Source: Ectocarpus siliculosus (Eukaryota; Sar; Phaeophyceae; Ectocarpales; Ectocarpaceae). Taken from it: DNA of 61,178 bases. Location: NCBI GenBank assembly GCA_000310025.1, contig FN647863.1, positions 218,385 through 279,562 of the forward strand, in the 5' to 3' direction. Under the pieces are notes generated by a model that saw only the letters and a program-made list of their open reading frames with translations, was not told the DNA's origin and searched no databases. Position 1 is the first letter of the stretch. The number at the start of each line of letters is the position of its first letter. The translations under genes and the position numbers were made by a program. Below, piece by piece: positions 6,001-30,484 of this stretch.

Positions 6001-6909
6001 GCGTAGGAGGGTCGGAAGATGCGGGCTAATACAGAAAAACCCCACGGGGACTCAAAGCACAAGGAGGAATAAAAGAAGGTCGGCATTCGGGATAGAAAAG
6101 GCACCGCTGGTGGGATACGTCTGCGCGTGTGCTCATGTGAAAATTGCACCGCACCTTCACTTGTAAATATGGCGTTGGTAGTAGCAGCTGTACCTGCTGT
6201 GTCGTTTGTCGGGCATCGGAAGCTAAATATTCGTCGGATATGTAAGGATGTGTTTCAAACTGCACGCGGCGCGCTGCAATCTGCTATGAATCAGGGCACC
6301 GATACCAAAAGCCTCAGTCCCTATCGGGCGAGACTATGGTGCCATCTGCTTGTTGCGACTTTCACCGGTGCGCTGCTGTAGATGAGCTGCTGCCCGTGGT
6401 CCCGTGGTACCCAAAGTACGTACAGCGGAGTCTTGGACAGGCAGTCAACATAGCGCAACGGCGATCTGACAGGTGCAAATAGCAGCAGCTGAAAGAGGCG
6501 CAAAGCAGCCACAAAAAAAACGTACGTGTTCAACCCACGAGGAGGCTAGGAGTCTGCCCAGGATAATATGCACACAACACCCTCTCGCCACCTAAGGACA
6601 CCAGCGGTACATATGCTAGAACGAATGATGCCCAGCAGCCAGCTGTATCCGAACAAACAAACACCGTCCGTGTGCACCAACAACGTATTGAATAAGGTCC
6701 TCAAAACTCCCGACCACTCGTCCTCCCGCTTCACCTCATAGTACATCTCAGGATCCACGAGCACGACGCGTCCGCTCTCGTCCATCCTGAGGCACTCTTC
6801 CGCGTCCCCCCACCAGTTACCCGTGCCTTCCCGACATCGGGCGAGCAAACCTTCGGGCCCAAGCGGTGCCAGTTCAAACAGATACTCCACATGTTGCTGC
6901 TGCTGCTGC

Positions 6910-6941
<32 letters not shown>

Positions 6942-7049
6942 AAGTGTCGATGCAGCCGAAGAACGGGCAGTATGAAGAGGAGGCAACGCTACCGCCACTC
7001 CAGGTGATTCGCCACCAGGTTCACTCATCCCCGTAGATCTACCCTCCAT
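1..7049 (-). CDS. NBAS-like protein, N-terminal beta-propeller (3' end outside window)
   Basis: Eight exons chain in frame: 7049-6708, 5466-5233, 4703-4492, 3792-3612, 2914-2758, 2123-1744, 1033-924, and from 524 leftwards. Every junction agrees in phase (0,0,2,0,1,0,2). The translation reads as successive propeller blades, for example AWSKDGSVVAVS across the 4492/3792 junction, VVVLTYDAVLALYSF, LSLTLWRV, VVFNPSGDRLAVLD and GWWSELTLAAISSAG. The order matches the N-terminal domain of NBAS (neuroblastoma-amplified sequence), which in animals and plants belongs to the NRZ/Dsl1 ER tethering complex and also acts in nonsense-mediated decay. The start was taken as ATG 7049 (MEGRSTG); an in-frame ATG at 7340 would add 97 residues. 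A polyglutamine run lies at 6893-6943. The GGA|GTTTTG donor at 6708 is weak. Another large WD40 protein is possible, but order and spacing favour NBAS. The last exon runs into poor homopolymer sequence below 130. Confidence 0.68.
2487..2725. mobile_element. MITE-A remnant in NBAS-like intron
   Basis: It has CTTTCCTGCCGAGTAATCGA then GCTTTGAAATCGGTCTACGG and, further right, GGTATCCTATGCAACCTATA, the terminal sequence of the family. An A-rich segment (2585-2680) separates the parts. It lies in the intron between NBAS-like exons 2914-2758 and 2123-1744. Confidence 0.5.
3838..3890 (+). repeat. Dispersed repeat R1, short copy
   Basis: GGTACTCATGTATTGCATGC then CTTGTAGCGGTTATAGACCA and TTTGACCCACG, matching the start of the R1 core. 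It lies in an NBAS-like intron. Confidence 0.5.
4960..5150 (+). repeat. Degenerate repeat with CATCTACTACC units
   Basis: Imperfect units containing GGCCGGG-GCCCATCTACTA, with CCTAGATCATCTC or CCTAGACCACCTC spacers, occur about four times. The repeat lies in an NBAS-like intron. Confidence 0.5.
6708..7049 (-). CDS. NBAS-like exon 1 with polyglutamine tract
   Basis: First coding exon of the NBAS-like gene, 114 codons. It opens with a low-complexity Ser/Ala/Pro segment, then about 16 Gln interrupted by one Arg (CTG repeat on the + strand), then HVEYLFELAPLGPEG, which sits where NBAS proteins carry their short N-terminal helix before the propeller. The end of the exon includes the strand-like DESGRVVLVDPEM. 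The repeat length is probably polymorphic. The start and the donor are the least certain points of this gene. Confidence 0.5.
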
Positions 7050-8168
7050 CTCCACTGCTATTGTAGAGAACACGGCTGCGTTGCTTGTGTGCGGAGCAAA
7101 AGCAACGCTGGGGGTGACGCAAATGTGAAAGGTTCCGCCGACGAGAGGTACGCAAATGTCAGAAGAGGGCCCCCGAGCCAACCAGACTGGGCAGAGGCGG
7201 CGAGGCTGCGCCACAGGAGCCCGCTCACTGCTCTGCTGAACCACGCCGAAGCACCCAGCACACAGAGCACCAATGTTTTTTCTACGATGGAGGTCCGCTG
7301 AGATGCTGGCTGTCTCCGTCTTGGGACTGCTGACCTTCAATGCTCATCCGTCGACCGCAGCGGCAGCGGCACCAACTGCAACCGAGGTCAGCGCGCCTTG
7401 CGGCCCAGATCATGTGTTCGCCCGAAGTCTGCCATGACTGCTTTCACGCTGTCCTCTCCCGTAGTAGAAGCGTCGGTAGACGCACCAGGGCGTAGGGATG
7501 TTTGATTTTTTTAGGTGGTTTTGGTAATAGAAGAGGTAGAAGAGCAAGACCGCTGCTGCAATACATGAACGCAACGTCGGTGCTCTCGCTGCTGCAACCG
7601 CTCTTTCACCCTCCATGCCGACACCCTCCCGCAAGTCGACTGCCCCAAATCAGCAGCAGCTGCAGCAGCGGCGGCCGAAGTGGTAATTGCAGACCCATGT
7701 AGAGGGTAAGGTTTGAGGTGGAGAGCAGTAATCCCTGTGCATACCAACTATTGTGTCACTGCTGTGGGTGTGGGCGTTGACTGTATAGATACGGCGGACA
7801 CGTGGAACACGACAGTGGTACAGAAGGTGGTACAGCAGTACGGACCTACAGCAGCAATACTGCTGCAAGACATATCTCTCACTACCGGTAGTTGGGGAAA
7901 CAGGGGCTATTCCCTTGGGTGTCAACTGAACGGTCTGAGGGATTGTCCCTCCCACCTACCTAGCAATCGTAGGGTCATTCACTAAAATGAACTCCATATT
8001 ATCTATCGTTCAGTTCACGACAGTGGGCAAATACTGCACGGAAATCGATCGCGACCGCACACACCGTCTCTGAGAGTGCGTCCGGTGTACCCGGCGATAG
8101 CCTTGTTGGCTGAACTCTGCTGGCCCTGTTCCGTACTCACGCGTTTTTCTTTTCCGTCCCGTGGTACT
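7050..8168. other. Intergenic spacer between divergent genes
   Basis: This 1.1-kb stretch separates the NBAS-like gene (-) from the ubiquitin-like gene (+), so it should hold both promoters. It has several CAG/CTG clusters, including 7655-7675, and a TACAGCAGTA motif at 7831-7840. A minus-strand frame at 7410-7634 encodes a hydrophobic stretch (AAAVLLFYLFYYQNHL) that could be an upstream exon, but no splice partner is evident. No TATA box or RNA gene was recognised. Confidence 0.4.
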
Positions 8169-13710: not shown

Positions 13711-15994
13711 TCGAGAATGTGTCCAGGCTGTGGCTGAACCAGAGGGGCAAAATACGCACCTGCTGCGCGTAGGGTTCTGGTTCTGGTTTGGATGTGAGCG
13801 TGAAAGCTCTTGTTTTTGGCAACAAATCCATACAACGCTGTGTGTCGGAACAGAAGTTGAATGGATATGTAGGCGAGCGGCGAAGATGTCGTCGGTTCGA
13901 ACCCGTGGCGTCTCCTCAACGTAGTGTGGCCGGTGACTGCACCGCCCGCTGCAGGGGCCGGTTCAGCAGTTTCCCTTTGTCGTGTGGTCCCCTTAGCCGT
14001 GTTGCAGCGTGTAGCATTCGCTCGCGAACACCAGGCAGATCTTTTGCCGTGCGTTCTAGAATGTAACGACATGCGCCGGCCAAATTGAGCTGTTTGCCCG
14101 TCTAGTTGGACAAGAATGATGTAGGCGATGCCTCTTGCTCTGCAATGCGCTACAACAAGAACATTTTGTGATTTCCATTTTTCTAACCGTGGGACAAGGG
14201 CAATTAACGTGAAACCTGCTTATGGCACATGAACTACTGGTGTAACTACGGCAGGACACCCCTGGCGTGTGCACGACATGCCACACGACACTATTCGAAC
14301 TACAATTAGTTCCCTTCCCGACCAAGGCAACTCCTGTAGGCAACCTGTATAGATTTCAAGCGCTCTCGTTTGCCAGACACTTCGTACATTTAGTTTGACG
14401 TCTGGCGAACGGATCAGACGATGGTTAAACGACGATAATAGATCAAAACTGAACTGAAATCTTCCTGTGGATGGCCTCTACTTGGGGGTTGATCAATGGA
14501 CGGCCATGATTCTCAGCACCTGGATGAAAAAAAAAACGGGCTCAACTGAAAGAGACTTGTCGCAAAACCCCTGGACCCACTTTCAAAGCTCCATTTCTGC
14601 ACAACCAAGTGGGTGCAGAAAGGAGCCCCGACACGTTTGTACAAAAATGCTCCCAACGAGATGTTTTCCAAAACCTACATTTTTTGTGCTGGGACAAGCG
14701 CTTGCGGTGGAGCAATCCGGCTTTGAGAATTTGTCTGTGTACGGGAGGGACATCTGTCCGCCTCTTGCGGTACATCTTCACGTCTTCACCTCAGGACGAC
14801 GGATAAATCCTGGTAAAATCATCCACCGCAGCAGAGTTGGCATTGACCCAGGTTTGGTGTACAACCAAGAAACGACCAGGTTTCCCACGTTGCCAATTTC
14901 CCAGAACGTAATCGATTGAAATTCTTATGATGGCCGTCGACTGACGAAACCCCAGTGGAGGACGTGCACCATAATCCTACTACGTACACTTAGTTCGTAT
15001 GTATCTTCGCGTGATGTGTCACACGCAAGATTTAGTCCAAATTATGCTTTGCCACGAGCATCAAAACGCTTGAAGCTTGCACTCCATACACGGGCACAGG
15101 TTTTGCGTTTGTCGGGAATGGACATAAAACCGCCCCCCAAAAACTGCTTGTAGTGCCTACAGTAGGCTACTCTGCCTACCAAATATCAACTCCGAACTTC
15201 GAGCAAGTCGGGACAGCACTAATCCTGACAGTCGAAACCTCCGCAGGCTCCAAGAAATTGAAGTTTCATGTAAATTTAACAGGTTTTAACCGTGAGAACA
15301 GTGCCTATTCTTGATAAGATTCTGAGTGAAAAGGCACACAGACCCCCCCCCACACACACACGCACCGTTGTTTGCCGTCGGGGTAGGGTTTTCGTCGGTG
15401 GGCAACTTGGATTTCGGTTTTCAATAGGAAATAGTTCACGATGGTGGGTCATTACCCCGTACTGCACAGTCAGAGCGGTTTCTATCCACGGTGCCCCTTA
15501 CGCAAATATATAGAACTTAGAATTCCCCCCCCCAAAAAAAAATCCCCTCCCCCCCCCCGAACGGCCGCCGATTTCGAGTAGTAGGCGTAGACGTGGCATG
15601 TAGTGTACCCTTGTTCCTACACTAATCCACCATATTCACTACGTAGTAGCCGCTAGGCTACCCCACAGAGGAATCAACCAACGAGCTCCGAATAGTGGCG
15701 TGTCGTGCACCAGCGAAGCGGGCAATAGCTGGTTTTGGGTGGCATGGTGGCGGCTGCTCAAACCTTCACGAAGATAAGCACCTGATTCTTCGGCGGGCAA
15801 CAGGACAGAATCAAGGGACGAAAAGACGCATCCGAGCGGCAACACATTTATTCGGATGAGCATTCGGAGCAATATTGATGCACGCACGGCGATCGCTCGC
15901 GCTAAGCGGTCGACGCCTGCGTGTGACAACAATGACGCGTTCAGAAAAACCGCAACATGTTCAGTCTAGATCTATGTGGACTACTCCTCGAAAA
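13711..15994. other. Intergenic region between convergent genes
   Basis: This 2.3-kb stretch lies between the 3' ends of the thioredoxin gene and the LNR gene. A diverged inverted-repeat element of the MITE family is visible at about 14568-14750. Homopolymer C/A runs occur at 15525-15560. No other gene, RNA or repeat was recognised. Confidence 0.5.
14568..14750. mobile_element. Diverged MITE-A copy
   Basis: It retains CCTGGACCCACTTTCAAAGC at the left and TGGAGCAATCCGGCTTTGAG at the right, plus the internal GACGAGATGTTTTCC block shared with the copies near 42600 and 53700. It is degraded compared with the copies at 43 to 57 kb. Confidence 0.45.
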
Positions 15995-18900
15995 TCACAT
16001 TAATTGGCCGAGAACCTGTACAGCAGCTTTAATTGTTTCATAGTGTGTTCTGCAGTAGTTGTTTCCTCCCTCTCAATGCTTGACCGGAGCAAAACCATAA
16101 CTCGCAGCTTGCTTCGACATGGGCCTGTTGCTATTCTCCGCCTGGGCAACAAGTCGTCGTGGACAATCACTTGCCTCGAGAAGGCTAATCCATTCGTCTG
16201 ACAGGAGGTCCACGGACTCGAGCATCACAGTGCTGGCCTCAGTAGCTGTCACGCCGAGCGTGTTGAAGGTGGAGTCGGCGTAGGACTCGTGCGTGTGGGT
16301 CAGCTCGCCGTCAATGAAAATCTGTTCACCGGCGTTGGGGACGAGACATGAGTGGATTCCGTCGGGGTTGCTTGTAGGTCGTTCGACAAAAGCCGCTTTG
16401 GACTCTTGTTGTCTTCGCGGCAAGGACGACAGTTCCGATGTATCTACCGGGTACATTCGAAGGTCCCGCTACCACAATATATACCTAGTGCACGTGATGC
16501 GGACGGCCTGCATGGTCACAGAGAGCGTCCCCAAAGAGGCGCGTAGACCAAACATCAAGAGAGAAGCAACAAGAAACTCAACATGAGAACGTGCCGGGAA
16601 TGTCGACACGATACCGGCTTCGTGGCCCGAAAACCCGCGGCGTGTGGGGTGCTGTCGCCACTCCATCGCTATGAAGGGTGATAACTTCGGCCGATCCTCA
16701 CACGTTTTGTGCAGTTCCACAGTATTGGCAAAGGGCTACCGAGGACTGGGCAATACGGGTAGACTATGTATTTGTGTTTGGTTTGCTCTGTGAGGTGGTA
16801 CTGTAGGCAGGACTCAACGTTTCCCACACTCACGTCCACGGTACGGGTGCGCTCGTTTCCCTCCCAGAAGGCAACCTGGATGTCCACGATGTCCTGGGGA
16901 TCGGCAAAGGAGAACTCGATCTGGCACGGACCTTCATCGGGGACGAGCATCGTAGCGCACGACCACCTCGACTCGATCTCGGAGATGATGCCGTCATGAG
17001 CCTTGATTGCCGCACAGCCGTCGCCGCCGGTCTCTCCGCACCCGACGTCGCCGCTGCTACTGCCCGGCCTCGTGTCGTGGGCGGTGGCTGATACGTTCAC
17101 CTCAGTCATTGTACCAACCTCGTAGGCGATGGCGACGGCGGGCAGCGGCCCCGTTTGGTTCGAGGGGATGTAAACGTACGCGGGGGGTATCGAATCATCG
17201 TTGTAGGCATCGGAGCCGTCCTGGTCCGTCCAGTCCCCGCGCACAAAGGAGTAAGAAGTCGACTCATCGTCGTAGGCGTCGGAGTCACCGTAGCCGTCGG
17301 AGAAACTGGAGCTTTCCTCGCCAAAGCACACCGCGCGCGGATCTTTGCAGTCGAAGAAGGCAGGACCCGAACCCGAATCGTTGACGACAATCGGAGGACT
17401 GTTGGAGGTGCAACTGCAGCAGTCGCCGCCATCGTAGTCTGGGGAGCGGAGAGCGGGTGGAGGCCGAGGGACGACGGCAATTCTCTGCAAACCGTTTTCG
17501 TTTTCCAATTCAGGATCTCTTAGGAATGCGACAAGTGGAAAGACCAGAAGGGTGTGCGAGCAAAGGGTTCGGCCACGAACTTCCGGAAGCATCACGCTTG
17601 GTGCGGCCTAAAATTGTACTGCTCAATGTGGGAGCGAGGAGCGAGAAACACCTGGCACAACATGTCTGACTCGCATTCACATTCTGCCCCAAGTGCTCGG
17701 ACCCATGCTGCTGAGAGAAACTACAGTAGGTGCACGATGTATGAAGAATTTCCGGCTGTCTACTGTCCTCCTGTAGTCCCGTGCAACGCACACCGCGCTG
17801 AAAATGTTTGCTTCATAACCAAAACCTCCCTCCCCACACTACAATACACACACAACCCAGCATTATATACGGGAGGTAAATCGATATCAGATAGGGTGAT
17901 ATCTCTCTTGGTTCGTTCATGAACAATCGTGGGAGGTTTCATCGGGAACCCGGCTGTCGCAACGTCTGAACTCATAACTCAACGGCAAAGAAAGGGCCCC
18001 CTCTACTGTACATAGTTTCCACGACGCGAAATGACCGTTTGGTCAATCGATCTTCGAGCCGGATATGGGCTGGCAAGGTGGGGCCAAGGACGTACTTGTA
18101 TACGATGCTTAGTCTCATCCGCCAAAAGGCAAGTAACTGCCTGTATTGCAGACATAGGGTAGGAAAAGACTTCTTCCTGCGAATGGGGAAACAAACGTTC
18201 GTGTAATTTGCTTTAGTATAGTAGTCGAAGGGGAACGACAAACTGCTGTACCGTTCCATTTTCGACGACCAACCCACCGCATTCTTCCGTGTTGTTGCTG
18301 ACGTTGCAATTGTCGTCTCATATCTCGAATGGTTTTCCACAGGCCTCCATCATTTCGACCGTAACACCATCATCGCCTACACACGCCGCGTCAGGGTCGA
18401 CGCAACCGAAAAGGGTGAAGCCACTCGTGAGGTCCTCGGGAATCTGACGGTTGGGAAATGAGGCGCCGATGATGACGCTATGAGAGGTGGTACTGTAGTC
18501 GGGGAATGTGGACGTAGAGGAGAGACAGACTTGTCGTGCATAATCAACTGTAGACTACACGTTATTTTCCCAACGGCAGAACTAATTTCGGGACTACCTG
18601 GCAGCATAGAATATTCACTTCCTGGATGGAGCTAGCTCCACGCGAAGAAGAGGAAAGTAGTTTCTTTTCAAAATAGAGAGAGGAGGCGGCAATGGCAAAC
18701 GAAGGGTTTCGCAAGAAAAATCTCGACGAGGAGAGGAGAAAACTGAGCCCAACCTCGCTCTTATATATTCGGACCCACGGGCTTCGCAGTCATTCGTACC
18801 TGGCACGTGCACTCGCAGCAGTCGCCGCCATCATAGCCTGACGAATCGGGACACAGCAGGAACGACGACGGCGTCGAAAGAAAGCCGAGGGAGGGAAAAC

Positions 18901-21900
18901 ACGAACAGCCTTAAGCCTTAGTTCTGCTTGGACGAGCCCTTGGTGCAGGCAATCTCGCGATAATATTTGCTGCTACCGTCCTTGCCTGAACTAAGGCGCT
19001 CGGGACAAATAGAACGCAACGAAAACTAAAAAAGTGAGGGTTGGGAGCTATATTCCTAGCAGAAAGAGGCACCCGTGATGATGCAGACTTGCCCCTTCCT
19101 GTCTTGCAGATCGAGCAAGGACAGAGCACGAGGTTGGCTCGTCGTGCATTACAATTGATTCGATGGTTCGGTGGGCATCTTCTGCATCTTCTCCTGGCGT
19201 GTCGACTTGAGTTCTGATCTCCGCAGCGCCTTCTCGCGAGGTATTCTGACGTCATCCCCGAACAGCAGAGGGGAGCGATCGGTTCGCATGTTCACGGGGA
19301 ACAACTTCTACGTGAACCCCGCAAAATATCAATACCCCGCAAAATATCACTACTCCGCGTTTCGTGTCTCGCGCAGTCACCTAGCGTGACAAGCAGTGAC
19401 CTCTTCTTGTCGGTGCGTTTCAGGGCCGCTTGCAGCAACGAAAAATGAAAACAACCCTGTACTCCGAAGGAGCTTCCTCAGCGCCTCGCTTGATCCAAGC
19501 CTATTGAGAGGCATTATTGTGGGTGTTTAACGATGGAAGGCAGACTGTTTGTCGTCGGTTGGCACTAGACCATGTAGACAAGGAAGGATTCGTTTCCTGG
19601 CTTGTGCGTAAGAGGAGGACGCAATCTGCGTCCAAGCTGGGGGCCTTGCTACAAGCCAAAGTAGGAGGATACACAAGGCGCTGACTACTCACTGGTAGAA
19701 CCGGAACCTACCGCATGCCTCGTTGTTGTTTCCTGGGCCACACTGGCCATCCCCGATGCTCCACAAATCTTCGCAGTTTTCAACCAAGTCGGCGGTGACG
19801 GAGTCGTCGTCAACGCAGGAGGCCGCTGGGTCGATACAGGCGAATTCTACGCACCTGGTCATAATGCCATTGTCGTTCTGGCAGATGCGTGAGCAGCAGC
19901 GAACGGGGGCATCCTTGGTCAGAGATTGAGGAGGCAGACAGATGGGGAAGCGGCATATGAAGGGCACACCTACATCGAGAAGTCGCGCCTACAATCTCAA
20001 CACACGAAGCTGTGGGGAGAGTGGGAACAGAGGCGGAAGGTGGAAAAGAGCAGTCCACGGGGGAGCTTCCACGTCAGTTCCATTTCTAGAACCCAGCGAA
20101 GTACGCTCGAATCGCCCTGCTCAACAGAGACAAACAAACGTCGTACCTGACACGTGCACGGACAACAGTCGCCGCCATCGTATGCTGTCGAGAGGGGCGG
20201 GAAAAGAAAGATGGAACGAGGAGGAAACGAGGCGTCAGGAGGGACCGCGTTGTTGGTTGACGTGGCGTCACGCATGCGTGAGGCAGCCTGTGACCACGGT
20301 GCGCCTCCGTGCCAAAGGGCACATTATCTTGCATTATGCAGGAGTTCGTGGGGGAGCTGTGGATGTTCAATATCTTCATCTTGGCAGGTGATATTGAACG
20401 CTTCGACGTTAGATAACTGATTAAAGAGAAGAACCAGTGGATCGCATATCGATTATGAATCATACCAGGTATCTCACAGATATTCAAAGGAGCCGTGTAT
20501 CGGGGATAGCTTCCCATGTCACGCTACAAGGAGCGCTGGGCGATGAGAAAGCAACATTCTCTGGGTTCTCAAGAATATCTGTACCTCTCTTACAGGTGAA
20601 CGGCTCGGGATGGGCTTGACACAGCGTTTGCGAGCCATGTGATAAGTGGTCAGCGAGTGAGTGCGTTCGGAGTGATGGTGGTCATCGGCTCATCCTAAGG
20701 TATTGGGGTGTTCCCAATAATCCCGACACTGCCTTGAAGCCACTATTGTAGATGCTACCGTTGCGCTACAGTTCACAGCAAGTCTCTCGGCTGAAATTCA
20801 GAGTTGTGTCTTGGAGCTTACCGCACTCTTCCGTGTTGAGGTCGTGATTGCAGTACCCATCACCGATTTCTTCGACCGATCCGCAGTTTTCGAGCATGCC
20901 GATAGTGATGTCGTCATCCCCGACACAAGGTGCGTTGGGGTCGACGCAGACATAATCGGAAGAAGCCTGGTTGCAGCCATCTCCAATAACACTCTGGAAG
21001 CAGGGGGGAACGCGGCAATGCATGGAAGAATAAGAGACAACAGCTCATTCAGCAAGGAGAGTGAGGAGCGAAAGGAGGCAGGGGAGAGCAACGACCTGGG
21101 AGAAACACGATGCTATGTTGCAGTTGTGCTCCGCCTGCAAATGCCCCGTGGTTTCCACCTTGCAACACGTACATGCACAACAAGAAACGAAACGTACAGG
21201 GTTACATTCACGAATCACTTCATCGAACCAAACCTTCGGTGTGGTGTGCCACGAATTTCTATGACGGTGGAAACCCTTTGCAAGCAAATTCCTAGCGAGT
21301 TGCCGTGGAAAGTTACACGGGCATCCATGGAGTATCCATGGAATAGCCTGCGAAAACGTCTTTCGTGTACATGTAGTTCATTTTCCATGGAATTCCAAGG
21401 AATTTTCCACTGAATCCCACGTGCTAGACATAACCCTTACGCTATTCACACGCATAACCAAAAGCAACTCACTCAATGAGGTACTATGAAATCCACGAGA
21501 TTCCCCACAGCACGATACACTCGATAGGTTTCCACGGAAATCGTGGAAGGTTCCTAGAATTCTGAGGAAACTTCCCTGGAAAACGCTATGGAACACCTCA
21601 TGGAATTCCGTTCCATTGAATAGTGATGTGAATGATTGTTCTCTGGAGGTTCCAATGATTCTTGACTGTACAGAAAGAATGCAAGCGTGCCTTCAAGGTG
21701 CTTGCAAAGGGAAAAATATTTGTGACTGGAAGCGTAGCTTTTGCGAAGACGGGGGAGGGGGAGAGATCCATCTGCCGACAAAAATCATTCTACCCGAGCC
21801 GGTCATCTTGGAGTGAGTGCCTGGCATGCACACTCCTTTCCAGCGGTACGCTACACACCTATACTATGGAACAGTTCCGGACGAAGAGATGCAACTGACA

Positions 21901-24900
21901 CACGGAACATATCACACAGAGCTGGGCAGAGAGGTCTGCTGATGACGCGCATCTCTCTCGACCCACGCCCATAGTAAGCACTTCGCCTGGCCGGTGCAAC
22001 GGCAAATAATTGAGGTACATACCTGGCAGGTGCATTCGCAACATTCACCGCCATCATACGCTGTGGAAAGAAGGGAAGAGGGGCACAGCGAGAAGGATGC
22101 CAAGCAAGGCAAAAGAGCGCAGTTAGCATCGTTAGCTCGTTGAAAACAACCACCGGAAATGAGCAGCTGATAGGAAGGCTCGCGTATCTACCAAACCCTG
22201 GGCGAGAAGAAGCAGCGGTGCTGTACCATATTACTTAGCAGCATCATCGCTATCTGCGTGTCTCGGACGATCTGAGAAATGCGTCGTATAGGTAAGCTGT
22301 AGCGAAGATCCCCCAAGGAGAGAGGCCTCAATAATACAACCGCCGGTGGTGCATGGTTCTTGGAGAAGGTCGCACGTGCTAATATCACAGACAATCAAGG
22401 CTTACCGCATTCCTCGATATTGTTGATGAGGTCGCAGTCGCCATCGCCGATGCGCGATTCGAAACAATTGTCCACCATTTCCTCGGTAAAGAAGTCGTCA
22501 TCGACACAATCCGCCTCAGGGTCCATGCAGGCGAAATGTTGTGAATCGCCACACAGATAAAAGGCGTCCTGGTGATGGGTTCGCAGGATGTTCAAATGCA
22601 GACAAGGTCTATGAACAAGTTTGCGAGTCGAACGAGATCACGCCACAGGCTGATACGTACGCCTACGACAGGCACAATATTACATGTAAATAGTGCTTTC
22701 TTTACATTCTCGCAGCTTGGGTCGGAAAGGTGTCCGGGACGTGCCGACATGGAAGGCGTTGTGTCAACGAAGAACGATGGACCGCTGTGAGGTGTCCAGC
22801 GAGTGATGCTCATCGGGAGGAGAGCGCGTGGAATATTAGTCTAGTGGTGAACAGCATTTGCTCTATACGCACACGTACACTCTTACCGCAATATGATGTA
22901 GACCAGTACAGCCTCGGGGGTGTCTGACACTACTGTAAGCGATGCGTTTGTCCAACTCTCGCGGTTTTTTGGGGGGGCTTCTCCGCCTCGCATATTGTTT
23001 ACAGTATCTACAGTGCACCTGGGCGATATCGCTCACAGCCGAGAAGAGCACTTGTGTGCACGCCGTGGGGAAAGGGTGTGTGGCTCTCGGGGGAAACGCC
23101 CGACCCTTTTGGTGACAATCAACCTTTGAAAGCGTTTCGTTTGTGTCCGTGTCTCGAAGACGAAGAACAGATAGCTGGCGATGCCGCCATCAGGTGCATG
23201 CACCCGGACAAGAACAACGAAAAATATCTCACAGAACGTAGGCGGCAATCCACAGAGTGAGGGGAAAAGGAGGCTATGGGTGAGACAAAACTAGGAGACG
23301 CATGGGACGGGCAGACGCACCAATGCCAGACCTCCTTGACGTGTTTCGCAAAACGAGCGCAAGACAGAATCGATTCTCATACCTAACAGGTGCACTCGCA
23401 ACAGTCACCGCCGTCGTACCCTGAGGAAAGGTGAAGAGAGCAAACGGCAGACGGGAAACATTTGCTGTGCACCACGCGATTTCTTCTCCACTACCTGAGA
23501 GTAGAGCAACCACTGCATTCTGCATGGCCACTTTGTTACCGATCGAGTTCGGGCTGATCCATCATGTCAGTGCCATACAAGCTATCGCCCTCTGCAAATG
23601 AAGAACGAGATTTCACATGAAAAAAGCCCAACGGTGAAACCGATGCGACTGAAGAGGAAACACATTGCAACATATTCACGACCAAGCGATTTCGTGCGGT
23701 TTGCACGATTCCACCAACCCCCTGCCGTAGTTGACCGCTTCGACGGAAGCATGCTACAATAACCCCACTTGTCGCATGAAAACTCAAATATCGCGAGTAC
23801 TCACCGCAGTCTGCGTTGTTGTTTTGACAATTACAATAGCCGTTGCCGATGCTATTATGGTAGCAATTATCTGCCATGTCGAGAGTGAAGTCCTTATCGA
23901 AACAAGAGGCGTTGGGGTCGATGCAGGCGAAGCCGTACTCGCAACTGACAGAGTATTCGCCGGCGGACACCGATGGCTGACAGCAGAACAAGCAATCGAC
24001 AAGCATGTGGTTTGCCAAACTAGAAACGTGGAAATTGAGATAGATAACACCAAGGGCAGGTCTTGAAGGACAGTTCTCAAGGCAAACCGCTACCTGTCAG
24101 ACACGAACAGGCTTTGTACCTAAAAACATTCATTCTTCCCGGTAGCATTCATCCTGGTGATTGTTCAGATTTCAGAGAGTGTGCTGCGGTTCTTAGCAAC
24201 AGTGAGATCTGTGTACGTAGTGAGATCCGGCCAACATAGGTAGCCAGGAGACGAATAGCTGACCCCTTTTGGAATGCATCCTCATCCCGTGTTTGCTTAC
24301 CACACACGTGCACTCGCAGCAGTCCCCGCCGTCGTAGCCTGCGAACGAAGGCGGAGGAGGGGAGACGCGAGAACAGAAAGAACAAGGACAGGGATAAAAA
24401 CATCCAAGTGTGACAGCCGGGTGACGCCGTTGCATCGAGAAAAGGCCTACAGTTGCTCGAAGGAGCGTACCTGCGTAGGAATATTTTTGAAAACGACGGA
24501 ATGAGGGCTACAACGGTGTTGGCCGTGGGGGAATAATACGAGTTTAGGTGCTCCGGAATCCAACGCGAGCTCACCGCACAACTCGTTGTTGTTCTCCTCG
24601 TCGCAAATTCCATCGCCCACGGAAGCGATATCCCTGTAAGCGGCGGTGTCAAGCACGTTCGAGCGTAAGAAAGGGATCTACGGCAGCCCCAGCACGACCA
24701 CTGGCACGAAGAACAACGTGCAATAACCATGGTACGCAACAACCACGTGCTGACCGCATAAAATGAATCGAGATGACACCTTTCAACGCTACTACGGTTA
24801 AGCGTTGAGGCGTTGACATACCCGCAGTTTTCGAACACATCGACAGTAATATCGTCGTCTCCGACACACGGCGCTGCCGGATCGATGCAGGCGAAGTTCG

Positions 24901-27900
24901 AGGCGCAGGAGTCGGCCTCGTCCACTTGGCTCTGGTACGTGCAAGCGTAGCACCACTTAAGACTTTAGGCGATTGATACATAGTTTGAGCTAAAGGAGGC
25001 GGCTGAAGGAAAAACAGGGAATAATGCGAAGAGGTTCAGGGGTCAAGATTCGACATGCACACACCGAGGCAAGACTAAAATTGCCCAATATTCATGGTGT
25101 GTCTTGCGTATGGGCATCTCGACAGCACAGTTTGGCATTCAAAACACGGGAACAGGGGCTGGAGGGACAGGCCAGTGGAAGGTAGTTGCAATCATTTTCC
25201 ACGTTTTGGAATTTCGTGGGCAGTGCAAAGATTTGTATTGCCTCTGCTACATCAAGCGGGCCTGATCTGGATGGAAGCGGTTCAGCCTCTCAGTGTGACA
25301 GACACGAAAACAACGGTGCACGAGTCAGTAGGTGGCAAAAGGATGTTTCAGAACTGAGATAGGGACCCAAAGAACAGAGGAAGAGGTGAAGAGGAAGCTA
25401 ATGCACGAAATATCGCACTCCTTGCAAGAACTCGTACGGCTTTCTAGAATTGCTCACCACGCATGTGCACTCGCAGCAGTCGCCGCCATCGTAGCCTGAG
25501 GGAAAGAAGCCACGACCACCACCGAATGGGAAGGAAAGACTCGAAACATTAGTTCCAAACCGTTCGGAAACTCGGGAAACACACACCACACCCGACCATG
25601 CTAGAGACTCGAGACCCTCCAGAAGCCGGAAACAACGCAAAGGTCAATGGGTAGCAAAATTGGGTTAGCTCGGGATCGCGATCATGACCCATTGATCGGG
25701 TCATGACACGGGCATGATCGGAGAACGATCGCAGAATGACCTCGTGTGTTGTCGGCCAGACTGTCGGACCATGACCGGGGGTATGATATGATTCAGCCAT
25801 GATAGTGTCATTACCATGTCATCATGACCAGGTACGTTACCATGAGTGGACCATGACATGATCATGACCCTATCGTCACCCAAAAAATATCTCGATGGTC
25901 TGTCTAGATTCACCGCATCGACGACAACCTAGCACCTAAAACGGCACACCCGTGTCCTGCTTGTTCCGTCAATACCAACCTAGAATGTATGTACCCAGTG
26001 CCAACCTAGCACCTTCGTGTGGGTTCAAGGTTTGGGTAAGCGCCAGGGATTGTAGCCGGTTTCATGCCCTTGCCAAAGAAGACAGTTCTAGTGTTGAGGA
26101 GCACCAGCATTACATCGGTTGTGTGTCGACTAGTCGCCGGTTGAAGGGATAGAACTCGATGCTGCTGTACAGCAGGGCAGGGGTTCGAGACGGGGAACGC
26201 TTTGCCGTTGTTGCTTCCTGCATAGACGGGGTGTTTTCGGCCTGTCAAGGTTGTGCGTGCACGGTTCATGTCCACGCCGCTAGCTAGGTGCACACAGGAA
26301 TGTTCGGGCCTACCAGGTCATGGCCGAGTCATGACCGAGCCATGACCAGGTCATGAACTAGTCATGACCTAGCGATAACCATGCCATGGCCAAGCCGTAA
26401 CAGCCTGACCCGTTCGAGGTCGAATCACGATTCGGTCAGGGCCGGGTAACGACCTGGGCATGACTTCGGTCATGACCTTGATCGAGGTAATTCCTCAATA
26501 TAGTCATCAAGTCATTACCCGCCCATGGGTCATGCTTCGGACATGATCGGGTCATGACCCAGCCATGCCCGGGCTATGGCCGTCATGACCGAGCAATGAC
26601 CCATGATCGGGTCATTTGACCCAGTCATACACCGACCATGATCACGATCATGAGAATGCCCACTCATGCCACGGTAGGGGTGAACGGATCGCTCCTGATT
26701 ATTCCAAGTAAAGAGCTCAGTATCTCAGCCTGGAATGGACACACTGACCCAACACAAACCTACCATGAGACAAGTATTTCAATGAGCTAGATGAAATACA
26801 ACAGGAATTCAAGATCGGAATTGGTGCTAGAACGTTACGAGAAGCTTCTGACGCACAACGTGCTCTCCCTACCGTGGCATGACTCTAACCCGGTAAGACT
26901 CGTAATTTCGTCGAAGGTGCAGTTGGTACGTAGACGAGAGGTGTTGAGGCATGCAACGAAACCAGGCAGACATGCAACGAATATACGGTAGGGAGGGAGG
27001 GAGGGAGGGAGGGAGGGAGAGAAAGGGAGAGAGAGGGAGGGGGGGGGGGGGAGGAGGGAGAAAATGCGAAAGGATGCAAGCGTACTCCGTCACTCGACTT
27101 TCTAACATATGGTATGCTAGGTATCCTCACAAAATTTTCCACCGTACTTACCGCATATCTCGCTGTTGTTGGCGTAGTCACACAGACCATCCCCAAACGA
27201 AGATACGAAGCAGCTCTCGATCATGACGGTAACGTCGTCGTCGTCGACACAAGGGGCGGTCGGGTCGATGCAGGCGAACGCGGTCTTGCTACAAGAGTCG
27301 TCGTCGTCTTCTGAACTCTGCCATACACACGCGCGCGCAGCAGCGCACGGACGAGAAAGCTTCATCTCGAACGTTTGAGCCCTTGTTGATAGGACATAGG
27401 AGATGGGGCTAAGCATGTCGTGCGCGCAGAACTACAAACCCCAGCAACCTCTGTGTGCAATGTTCGCACAAAAAGGAAAACAAGAAATGTGCATGCGAAA
27501 AGTACCCGAAATGATTCGAATCTTCGGACTTTGAGGGGGCAGGTGCAGAACGAAGTGTCCCTACTGTAGGGAGAGACACGCCGAGGAACGAGAAAGCAAA
27601 CGTAATTCAGGAGACCCTGTGTATGAACAATTCGAAGACTCCTCACCACGCATGTGCACTCGCAGCAGTCACCGCCGTCATAGCCTGAGAGAAACGAAGA
27701 ACGATCGACGAGGATGGCACCAAACGAAAACGATGTGGTATCAGCATCACATCTGACTGAGCCCGAGCCCCAGGGGGCGGTGGGATGAGGTTGGTCGCAA
27801 CTGTAGGGTAGAAAGAGAGGAGTAAGAGGGAGCGGGTTTGTCACGCATGAGGCCGTACCAAACTGGACTAGCTTGTACAAAATCCAATACTATTCCCATG

Positions 27901-30484
27901 CGGTTGTTGCATACGGTGATCGTGTACGGAACGGAAGTCATTTTGCGAGGCCAAGAATCAAGCCTTCAATGGGTGGTCAATGGCTTGGTTACTACTGTAG
28001 GGTAAAGCAGGGCGAATGGTTGTCCTTTCGAAAACCTGCTGCCCAATCTTCGATGCTCTGCTCTGCCTGTATGGTCTACCGCTGCTCGCTCCTATGGTAA
28101 AGTTTCAGCCGACGAAATGGAACATACTCTCTAGTCGCCAGGTACTCGGAACGTGAGAAAACATACCGCACTCTTCCTTGTTGTTCAGGGTATTGCAGTC
28201 GCCGTTCCCGATGCCTCCAGGCCATTGACAGTTCTCCGCCATGACAGCAGTAATCCCATCGTCGTCGACACAAGGAGCGTCCGGGTCGATGCACGCGAAC
28301 GCTCCATCGCAACCCCTATCGTCGTCATCGCTTCGATACTGGAATGTGCCCGGCGCAGGAACAAAAGGAAGCGAATATGTCTCAGCGAGGGTACGGAGGG
28401 GAGGGGAAGGGGGATCGAGAAAGGGGTACAAAAGGGAATCTGCTGCCTAGAAATGGCCATGATGAATGCATGGCAACTGCAATTCCCACCAACGAATTTG
28501 GACACTTTCTTGTTGTTCTTCGAGCGATCACGGTCAAGACGAAAAGAGGACAGCTATAGGGAGGTGTTGGTTACAATGAGCAGGGGAGGGTGAAGCGCGA
28601 CATTGTTTCCTTCATACCCAGGAGGGATAAAAGGCTCTATATGTCGGACTCTTCCAACCAACGCGATGGAGAGGCCCTTCTGCGATTTCCGCCTAAATAA
28701 TGGACCACCTAAAACTATGTGCCTTCGTTCGATCAGAACGAGGTCTATTGAACACCGATTCAAGATCTGCTGGCTTGTGAGGAGAAATTTTTTTAGGGCA
28801 CTCTTCGTCACACCGGTTTGGTAGCGCTCCGACAACAGATGGCCGTGCTTCACAGGCATTGCCCTAAAATCATAGGATGTGTTTTACCCTTTTCCTTTTT
28901 CCGGGAGTTCTACTCGATGAAGCTTCATCTAAAGGCAAAGCAATCAATCGTAGATCGTCAGCCAAACACGCAACACCGCGCTGGATGTGTTGAACGACAT
29001 ACACTGGGAGGTGTTGAACTACACTGGCAGCAGAACGACATGACATGGAAATGATGGGATCACCACGTGGTCGATGAGGTAATGAGGCCGAAGACGGGCA
29101 CGACAAACATCTCGCCGACCGAACGAACGCACCCACTCGTGTCGGCTCTGGTCTGGGAAGGAAGTCGATGTTCTCGAAGTTTATTTTCAAATGCATGAGA
29201 AAAATTTGTCTATTGTCCCAACTTTATGCCTCTGGCGTTGCCTGTATGCGTTCGTGCCGGGATCAAGCGTCTCTCTCGGCAAAGTAGCGTTCCAAGTGTT
29301 GCAGGACTTGAAGAAAAATGGGTGTGGGTGGTATTAGAAACGTTGGTTATTGGTGTTTGACTTGCGGAGGACACAATAGCCCGTCGAAGCGTTCGGGTGA
29401 TGAATGAAGGATTCGGTAACACAATGAAGAACACCTGTGAAGGGCATCATCAGCGGAAACAAATGGACCTCATGTGAAGAAGCTGCTGTAGCACATGTGC
29501 TACTCAAGCGCTGTTTCTCGTCGCTGGAACATGAACTTGAAAAACATTATTGGCACTGCTTTGAACGGCATCAGCGGAAACAATTTGACCGCATGTGAAA
29601 AGAATTTACCCATAACCATGTGTGGTGCACAAGAAGCTCCGCTTCTCGTCGCGAGGTCATCGCGTTGCGCCCTTCTTCTGTTAACCGTTTAATCGTTGCA
29701 CGGCATCGCCGATAGACTTCTGCAAGGTATTGAGTCGTCATCCGGCTCATCCTTCCCTACGAACGTAGACTCCATACCAGCCTCTAGATAATGCGGGTTC
29801 GAGGAGTTTCGTACCTGGCATGTGCACTCGCAGCAGTCGCCGCCGTCGTAGCCTGAGGATTTACGGCACAGGGTGGCAAACCAAAACAAGAGGAAATGCT
29901 GAAGATGGACGCAATGACTAAGCAACGACGGCGTGCTACGGGTTTTGTGGCACTCACAAAACAACGGTGTATGCGTGAGAGCGAAACAGTATGAATCTGG
30001 GGTTTCCAATACCGTATAACAATGGTTCCAGAACCAACAACGCGAGAAAGGTCGCGAGGTGTCCTGCGAGGCCTGGCAGCCCTCTCTGATCTGCGTGTAA
30101 CAATATCGCGTGTGATCAACCCAGGTTTGCATCGCAATAGCGATGCCTGATGCACTCTGAGACCTAACAAGTTGAGGCGAGGGTGCCTGGGTCGTGGCCC
30201 ATTCGGACAGAAAGGCGGATTTCTTATGAACCAAGATAGTGAAAGGGTGCGCTGTATTCACCGACAAGCCCTGAAATGAGCCAAAAACTTCATACTTACA
30301 TGCCGCATTCTGCATCGTTGTTTATTGAATCACACTTGGAGTCTCCGATGTACCAGTCGAGGCACCCGATATGGAACTCCGAGTACATGGTGGTGGACGG
30401 GTTGCTTTCTTCACAACACCCACAAGTCAGAACAACTGCTGTGGCACCGAGAAGGCCCAGCAAGCGGTTGGAGTTGTTTCTCAT
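15995..30484 (-). CDS. Secreted LNR-repeat protein with C-terminal discoidin-like domain; two in-frame stops
   Basis: Twenty-one exons read in one frame, equivalent to 867 codons: 30484-30304, 29852-29815, 28338-28167, 27684-27647, 27317-27152, 25495-25458, 24931-24822, 24633-24575, 24338-24301, 23976-23805, 23420-23383, 22568-22406, 22060-22023, 20993-20822, 20184-20147, 19877-19712, 18837-18800, 18443-18278, 17438-16834, 16321-16175, 16015-15995. A signal peptide starts at ATG 30484. Nine repeats follow. Repeats 2-9 have FACIDP-x-A-x-CV, ENC, IGDG-x-C, NN-x-EECG and then YDGGDCCECTC, the calcium-binding Lin-12/Notch (LNR) pattern; the first repeat lacks the FACIDP part. The last large exon adds an acidic Ser/Asp linker and a beta-sandwich module (IVDIQVAFWEGNERTRTVD) resembling F5/8-type-C folds. 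No membrane segment is seen, so the product is probably extracellular. TAG at 23385-23383 and TGA at 18320-18318 interrupt the frame. It may be a recent pseudogene, a truncated 349-residue protein, or rescued by exon skipping. Confidence 0.8.
16175..17438 (-). CDS. LNR gene C-terminal module (exons 19 and 20)
   Basis: Exon 17438-16834 completes the ninth LNR (DYDGGDCCSCTS). It continues through a Ser/Asp/Tyr-rich linker with NQT and NVS glycosylation sequons, then SRWSCATMLVPDEGPCQIEF and VDIQVAFWEGN. Exon 16321-16175 finishes the beta-sandwich with FNTLGVTATE, STVMLESVDLLS and EWISLLE. Joined, the part resembles F5/8-C (discoidin) carbohydrate-binding modules; that is inference from strand pattern and Trp/aromatic spacing. 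The donor 16834 is GTGAGT; the donor after 16175 is GCAAGT, a canonical GC-type site. Confidence 0.7.
18278..18443 (-). CDS. LNR exon A9 with internal TGA
   Basis: The frame reads FGCVDPDAACVGDDGVT, then MMEACGKPFEI, TGA at 18320-18318, then DDNC and NNTEECG with a TGCG|GTGGGT donor. The stop sits exactly where sister repeats have the Gly of IGDG, so a GGA-to-TGA change is the simplest explanation. The rest of the exon is intact, including length (166 bp) and both splice signals. Confidence 0.75.
21300..21620. repeat. Palindromic TTCCATGGAA-type minisatellite in LNR intron
   Basis: The intron before exon A7 holds many self-complementary or near-palindromic copies related to TTCCATGGAA, TTCCACGGAA and GAATTCC, for example around 21328, 21385, 21525 and 21598. 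They are not evenly spaced. No coding potential was seen. Confidence 0.6.
23383..23420 (-). CDS. LNR exon B5 ending in a TAG stop
   Basis: This 38-bp exon has the same length, acceptor and phase as the seven other B exons and encodes GYDGGDCCECTC. Its final codon is TAG where the sister exons have CAG or GTG, and the GTATGA donor follows directly. One C-to-T change explains it. If real and spliced, translation stops after 349 residues and five repeats. Confidence 0.75.
25670..26650. repeat. Palindromic GGGTCATGACC-type repeat array in LNR intron
   Basis: Intron sequence between LNR exons A3 and B3 carries dozens of degenerate TCATGACC/GGTCATGA units, densest at 25670-25875 and 26310-26650. 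Many are perfect inverted repeats of each other, so transcripts could fold into multiple stems. The stretch 25900-26300 between the two dense blocks is ordinary intron sequence. Confidence 0.75.
26990..27060 (+). repeat. (GGGA)n / poly-G microsatellite
   Basis: A purine-only tract of GGGA units merges into GAGA and then a run of about a dozen G. It lies in the LNR gene intron, close to exon A3. Confidence 0.9.
30304..30484 (-). CDS. LNR gene exon 1: signal peptide and first half repeat
   Basis: It starts MRNNSNRLLGLLG, continues hydrophobic to about residue 20 and is followed by a Cys-rich start (CGCCEE). The half repeat ends CLDWYIGDSKCDS and then NNDAECG. It lacks the FACIDP part seen in later repeats. 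The phase required by exon 2 is met only if the donor is GC (TGCG|GCATGT). The strong GTAAGT three bases further on would put exon 2 out of frame. Confidence 0.7.

Follow-up and report, generated by a model that had tools for sequence, protein, structure and literature searches.

Lin-12/Notch repeats (LNRs) of the canonical Notch type contain six cysteines which form three disulfides, and in Notch the acidic residues of the DGGD type bind calcium. In brown algae, genes with repeats encoded by separate exons are described in the ROCO LRR and NB-ARC-TPR genes, in which tandem repeat exons lie between introns of matching phase and whose families include pseudogenes; the available part of the account describes the one-exon-per-repeat arrangement for the LRR genes, with one 72-bp phase-2 exon for each LRR and shuffling of these exons, and covers the TPR case by citation only (PMC11378527). 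For carbohydrate binding the closest described module is the CBM32 of the alginate lyase AlyQ, which according to the sections consulted holds calcium via the side chains of D209 and T214, has R248 and W303 as proposed uronate-binding residues and bound cleaved, but not intact, alginate (PMC5651945). The portion of PMC9971899 used here states that before CBM96 no known CBM of an alginate lyase binds the internal chain. Among the matches listed in our literature search, which left most subscription papers uncovered, there was no treatment of LNR cassettes or of an LNR-CBM32 protein in brown algae.

The locus studied here lies in a window of 61,178 nucleotides, i.e., the whole stretch of DNA analysed (Ectocarpus siliculosus contig FN647863.1, positions 218,385 to 279,562 of the forward strand; this 475-kb contig is called C39 below). 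On the minus strand of the window, from position 30484 to position 15758, we modelled a gene, termed U, with 21 exons and 20 introns (Table 1). Behind a signal-like N-terminus there are nine LNR cassettes, each a pair of an A and a B exon; B1 to B8 measure exactly 38 nt each and the ninth B is the start of a 605-nt exon which runs into the C-terminal domain. All introns between A and B of one cassette are in phase 1, all introns between B and the following A are in phase 0, and the intron splitting A4, the only split A, is in phase 2. The cassettes are therefore frame-neutral as originally predicted, and the nine repeats, the 20 introns and the eight B exons of 38 bp were all recovered, the same exons and phases being found in two intact paralogues, X and Y. 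The one split A of the prediction is A4 (110 and 59 nt), and A1 with 181 nt falls outside the predicted length range of the A exons (110–172 bp).

The model has no frameshift. Acceptors are AG at 20 of 20 introns and donors are GT at 18, the other two (A1 and C2) being GC. GC-AG introns also occur once among the 20 introns of X (exon A3) and are absent from the 20 introns of Y and the 16 of the paralogue W. In a blastn comparison of U with X, from which pieces below 60 bases were left out (as in the comparison of W with X below), all aligned pieces of at least 60 bases fall on the exons and their short margins and the introns remain unaligned. The joining of A to B exons by splicing is predicted from the sequence. 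The gene had been taken to end at 15995, and the last exon, placed by homology with X (VQIFVTP and stop in X, VLIFVKV and stop in U), lies beyond this limit; an alternative last exon ending at 15995, which was our own guess and so no test of the original prediction, led into stops. The intron between A3 and B3 contains at window positions 26300–26660 many palindromic motifs similar to GGTCATGACC, part of which form a 33-nt tandem repeat. Elsewhere in the window an open frame on the minus strand (6546–7340) with a long stretch of glutamines (at 6895–6941, a TGC repeat) gave only a weak low-complexity Pfam match, and a Pfam scan of eight of the 12 window open reading frames of at least 220 aa gave nothing over the cut-off.

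Table 1. Exons of gene U in the order of the transcript; numbers are plus-strand positions of the window.
Exon	Position	Strand	Remarks
A1	30304..30484	-	181 nt; start codon, signal-like N-terminus, first short LNR A part; GC donor GCATGT (paralogue A1: GTATGT)
B1	29815..29852	-	38 nt; YDGGDCCECTCQ
A2	28167..28338	-	172 nt
B2	27647..27684	-	38 nt
A3	27152..27317	-	166 nt
B3	25458..25495	-	38 nt
A4a	24822..24931	-	110 nt; first half of split A; split common to X, Y, Z, W and the C24 gene
A4b	24575..24633	-	59 nt; second half of split A; phase 2 intron between the halves
B4	24301..24338	-	38 nt
A5	23805..23976	-	172 nt
B5	23383..23420	-	38 nt; last codon (23385-23383) is a TAG stop
A6	22406..22568	-	163 nt
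B6	22023..22060	-	38 nt; YDGGECCECTCQ
A7	20822..20993	-	172 nt
B7	20147..20184	-	38 nt
A8	19712..19877	-	166 nt
B8	18800..18837	-	38 nt
A9	18278..18443	-	166 nt; in-frame TGA stop (18320-18318)
B9, linker and first part of CBM32-like domain	16834..17438	-	domain part 16834-17151
C2	16175..16321	-	CBM32-like domain; tryptophan aligned with AlyQ W303; GC donor
C3 (last)	15758..15781	-	VLIFVKV and stop; placed by homology with X

The assignment of the repeats to the LNR family, which the original prediction had made from the sequence motifs, was confirmed by profile searches of the spliced proteins with Pfam LNR (PF00066). U, with the letter X written at its stops, gave an E value of 2.9e-21 and 76 bits in six stretches and X gave 5.5e-22 and 78.3 bits in eight stretches, both passing the curated cut-off of 21.2 bits. 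When the whole genome was read exon by exon, the same search found two places, none of them on C39, because an intron cuts every LNR and the match appears only after splicing. A profile of the repeats matched the PDB entries of pappalysin-2 (5.1e-8), Notch1 (4.5e-6) and pappalysin-1 (1.2e-5). The repeats thus resemble the LNRs of the Notch negative regulatory region and of the pappalysins, with profile scores far over the cut-off and the DGGDC motif kept; the acidic residues of DGGD are invariant in all 13 repeats of our alignment. In contrast to Notch, the LNRs of this alignment have four cysteines instead of six: those in ENC, GxCD, xxCG and GDC are invariant and the two middle partners are absent, as they are in the aligned C-terminal LNR of pappalysin-2. 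Unlike the Notch and pappalysin proteins, moreover, there are nine units here, each followed by CxC and a C..ACIDPxAxCV stretch, and the Pfam scan of the spliced protein found no EGF, ankyrin or protease domain.

LNR was the sole Pfam family in the spliced protein at E 0.1, and the view that the protein is not a Notch receptor stands. That it also has no membrane part is likely by hydropathy but less settled: outside the first 40 residues the peak values are 1.27 for X, 1.37 for U, 1.44 for W and 1.66 for Y, the last lying at the C-terminus of Y and being similar to its signal-like start (1.61). We therefore regard a membrane tail as unlikely, the C-terminus of Y being a borderline case. X is very acidic and rich in cysteine (198 acidic residues, 16 lysines and arginines and 94 cysteines among 847 residues).

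Ten contigs of bacterial MAGs, five from Neomarinimicrobiota, also gave LNR matches of the four-cysteine type, so the module is not a speciality of animals. The one contig which we translated (L055, Neomarinimicrobiota) has the same four-cysteine LNR, one of them followed by a DCLDPxxA stretch, but in this bacterial protein the LNRs are scattered over a long sequence of other make-up and there are no introns. One viral contig of IMG/VR also has an LNR match. In the Ectocarpus genome the locus C36:197473-200556 encodes an LNR split by an intron-like gap, then CCECTCV..FSCLDPSA and then a long stretch which by eye resembles a parallel beta-helix.

The C-terminal domain had been called discoidin-like. 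The kind of domain turned out to be right only in a sensitive profile search, and the expected Pfam family was not matched: PF00754 (F5/8C) gave no match to the last 160 residues of X and U even at E 10, and in a search of the genome it hit four places, none of them on C39. A profile of the domain found the AlyQ CBM32 (PDB 7d29 and 5xnr) with E 0.012 when built from four sequences and 0.0013 when built from five, the next unrelated match being at 0.54. In the alignment of X, Y, U and W the AlyQ residues D209, T214, R248 and W303 stand opposite D, S, R and W, respectively (we counted these AlyQ numbers along the AlyQ fragment from the residues named in the consulted part of PMC5651945); the residues of the calcium site, with serine for threonine, and the arginine and tryptophan of the uronate site are thus kept in the alignment. 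With the AlyQ fragment as query a locus on contig C19 (E 0.012) and one on C33 (0.15) were found and C39 itself was not matched; with the C39 domain as query the same loci were matched at 1.2e-16 and 7.0e-16. Since both queries match them, these loci form a bridge between the C39 domain and the AlyQ CBM32. A single-sequence structure model of one exon alone was all-beta with a mean pLDDT of 47.3, too low for the model to be used. No viral relatives of the domain were found in viral_contigs. Unlike AlyQ, the protein has no PF00754 match and no lyase domain was found in it, the domain stands behind an LNR array and is spread over three exons, and the organism is itself an alginate maker. Judged by its sequence, the domain of the U family resembles CBM32 and is classed as CBM32-like only, without a Pfam match.

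A degenerate B-exon pattern, allowing up to one mismatch, gave 98 matches in the 189-Mb genome, which are pattern matches and not verified exons, and none when the pattern was reversed. C39 carries 42 of these 98 matches, and the remainder are spread over 14 other contigs. With a looser pattern 42 B-like exons were found in 260 kb of C39 (140–400 kb, with 438 bases missing), where they belong to six genes, W, V, U, Z, Y and X. Full gene models were made for U, X, Y and W. No internal stop occurs in X (847 aa) or Y (851 aa), and W (713 aa), with 17 exons and seven cassettes, is likewise intact, so that three of the six cluster genes are intact as models. Z has lost cassettes 1–3 and is interrupted both in A7 and in its C-terminal exon, and V survives as a remnant that contains stops and a break of the frame. 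Matches beyond 400 kb show further family members on C39, namely a C-terminal domain at 410 kb that is 96% like that of X and B matches at 414–424 kb and 431–437 kb. Counted exon by exon, the C-terminal domain has 32 matching places in the genome. On the evidence of these matches U is a member of a large family of clustered paralogues in the brown alga. A short relative (L021, C24:2786438-2789464, minus strand) has a split A followed by a B exon whose donor is GC; the C-terminal stretch comes next on an apparently separate exon, which differs from the arrangement in X, Y and U. Exon A5 of Y (C39:361180-361402) contains a run of five WDDD units, a 12-bp coding minisatellite which is much shorter in X. 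Expansion of EsV-1-7 is a mark of brown algae; of 880 candidates in the genome, 150 are scored EsV-1-7 matches, against none in 14 control genomes, which fits a brown alga.

The original prediction held that the phase arrangement permits gain, loss or shuffling of repeats by intron recombination. An A+B pair lies between introns of matching phase, and a deletion reaching from one intron between A and B to the next would remove one repeat and keep the frame. Such deletions are seen in W. Compared with X, W lacks two stretches, in both cases with the breakpoints inside introns between A and B: B1+A2, where the sequence passes from the A1–B1 to the A2–B2 intron, and B8+A9, where it passes from the A8–B8 to the A9–B9 intron and some bases at the junction find no match. 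The W segment is free of runs of N, and its reading frame remains open. As U, X and Y have nine cassettes and the related gene on contig C24 shows A1 to A9, the change in W is a loss, and read from these alignments frame-neutral cassette loss has happened twice in this gene. Gain and shuffling were not seen. Each of the 37 repeats compared from X, Y, W, Z, V and the C24 gene has its best match in another gene at the corresponding position, and for U this holds for six of eight repeats, the misses being U_3 and U_5; these counts and the repeat tree leave out the first cassettes (which have no ACIDP part), the broken repeats Z_7, V_6 and V_9 and the second C11 and C27 copies, take K_9 of the C24 gene and three type I repeats without B part, and contain Z_4 joined by hand from two exons. 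When the X repeats were permuted, 84 of 40,320 orders scored at least as high against U as the true order, and a tree constrained to group the repeats by position, U included, was not rejected (p-AU 0.31). Reshuffling of repeats among positions, as described for the repeat-exon receptors of brown algae, was thus not found in these repeats, and we see no support for shuffling of cassettes as the main process. Like the ROCO LRR genes, the present family has tandem repeat exons between matching-phase introns and pseudogenes; it differs from them in using two exons per repeat, in its signal-like start and in that its repeats keep their position. The family may rather have evolved by duplication of whole genes with occasional loss of a cassette and decay of copies.

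The genome contains two exon architectures of such repeats. In the genes on contigs C3, C9, C11 and C27 (L003–L013 and L022–L027) a B part and the following A part lie together in one exon, which is entered and left at the phase-1 position, whereas in the C39 genes and the C24 gene B and the following A are separated by a phase-0 intron. As the architectures differ by this phase-0 intron, the 38-nt exon would be due to an extra intron in one branch, in every repeat but the last, or to loss of the intron in the other. That the split-cassette (type II) repeats go back to one origin is disfavoured by the AU test (0.043, weak rejection of monophyly) and not by the SH test (0.188, no rejection).

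Two in-frame stops in U were overlooked in the original prediction. The TAG in B5 stands directly before the donor and the TGA in A9 is at the site of the first glycine of the IGDG motif of the other cassettes. Cassette 9 also departs from the paralogues at its cysteines, with CTS for CTC and the first cysteine absent. The divergence between U and X (dS 0.94, dN 0.28, ratio 0.30) is constrained, and together with the lack of frameshifts this argues for a gene which was long in use and has been lost recently. U is therefore probably a recent null and not a working gene: purifying selection would have maintained it over most of its history, until two nonsense changes silenced it recently. The stops could also be sequencing or assembly errors or mark a null allele. 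Selenocysteine at the TGA was considered; the TAG elsewhere in U counts against it.

That U still works is a reading to which we give a clearly minor share of likelihood. B5+A6 and B8+A9 are each frame-neutral pairs, so skipping both would remove both stops and leave a seven-repeat protein; otherwise the stops would be sequencing errors or confined to one allele, or a truncated five-repeat protein would be made. The splice sites and the absence of frameshifts from the model speak for a working gene, as does the U–X ratio, which is not raised against that between X and Y (0.37). B8+A9 is exactly the pair deleted in W, and alternative splicing of shuffled LRR exons is described for brown-algal ROCO genes in the available part of PMC11378527. 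Set against this are the two independent nonsense codons, the cysteine departures of cassette 9 and the presence of the decayed copies V and Z in the same cluster, and we keep to the reading of U as a probable recent null.

As to the function of the intact family members, the protein would begin with a signal peptide, continue with seven to nine LNR units of the four-cysteine type, which linkers rich in aspartate join to one another, and end in the CBM32-like domain. We expect every LNR to hold one calcium ion and the CBM32-like domain to bind a uronic acid of alginate, probably at chain ends as in AlyQ. Such a probably secreted, polyanionic protein might serve in the calcium-alginate wall as an anchor or cross-linker that carries calcium, a proposal on which we stand about evenly divided. 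Since the AlyQ CBM32 binds cleaved alginate only, anchoring to intact alginate is not a given.

Alternatively the family could be a recognition repertoire of an immune kind, in which repeat number and loops vary so that microbes or cut alginate are recognised, as with the shuffled LRR/TPR receptors of brown algae. Clustered duplicates with decayed copies and the different repeat number of W fit such a repertoire, and Laminaria digitata recognises oligoguluronates according to the part of PMC3123347 consulted. Between X and Y, dN/dS reaches its highest values in the linkers (0.73) and the loop preceding IGDG (0.62), and it is intermediate in the ACIDP core (0.42), the C-terminal part (0.30) and B (0.27) and lowest in the LNR core (0.18). 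No region exceeds 1 between X and Y, however, and the loop between U and Y is at 0.64, which gives no sign of positive selection in these comparisons; in addition the repeats keep their position and the Pfam scan of the spliced protein found no signalling domain. We consider this repertoire improbable.

A role in developmental signalling between cells, like that of the LNR proteins reported to be down in the Ectocarpus etoile mutant, appears unlikely to us to the same degree. The LNR proteins of the etoile study are said to be transmembrane, whereas hydropathy gives no clear transmembrane segment here, with the C-terminus of Y as the borderline case. In its favour, the available part of PMC3879662 gives a Notch receptor sensu stricto as absent in Ectocarpus and lists 16 Notch-domain genes among gamete transcripts, one of which, Esi0061_0098, is cited as down-regulated in etoile. 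Least probable among the readings considered is a birth-and-death family of secreted LNR proteins which would sense the cut ends of the alga's own alginate via the lyase-type CBM32, with deletion and exon skipping shortening the calcium-binding array in frame, as a wall-integrity sensor unlike the LRR/TPR repertoires.

The comparison of W with X, Y, the C24 gene and U provides a natural case in which intron phase makes the loss of a repeat harmless to the frame, and with both gene architectures present in a single genome the origin of the 38-nt exon can be tested. The family joins an LNR array to a binding domain of the alginate-lyase type in an alginate-making kind of organism. If this domain binds alginate ends, the proteins would be testable candidates for perceiving or organising the wall.
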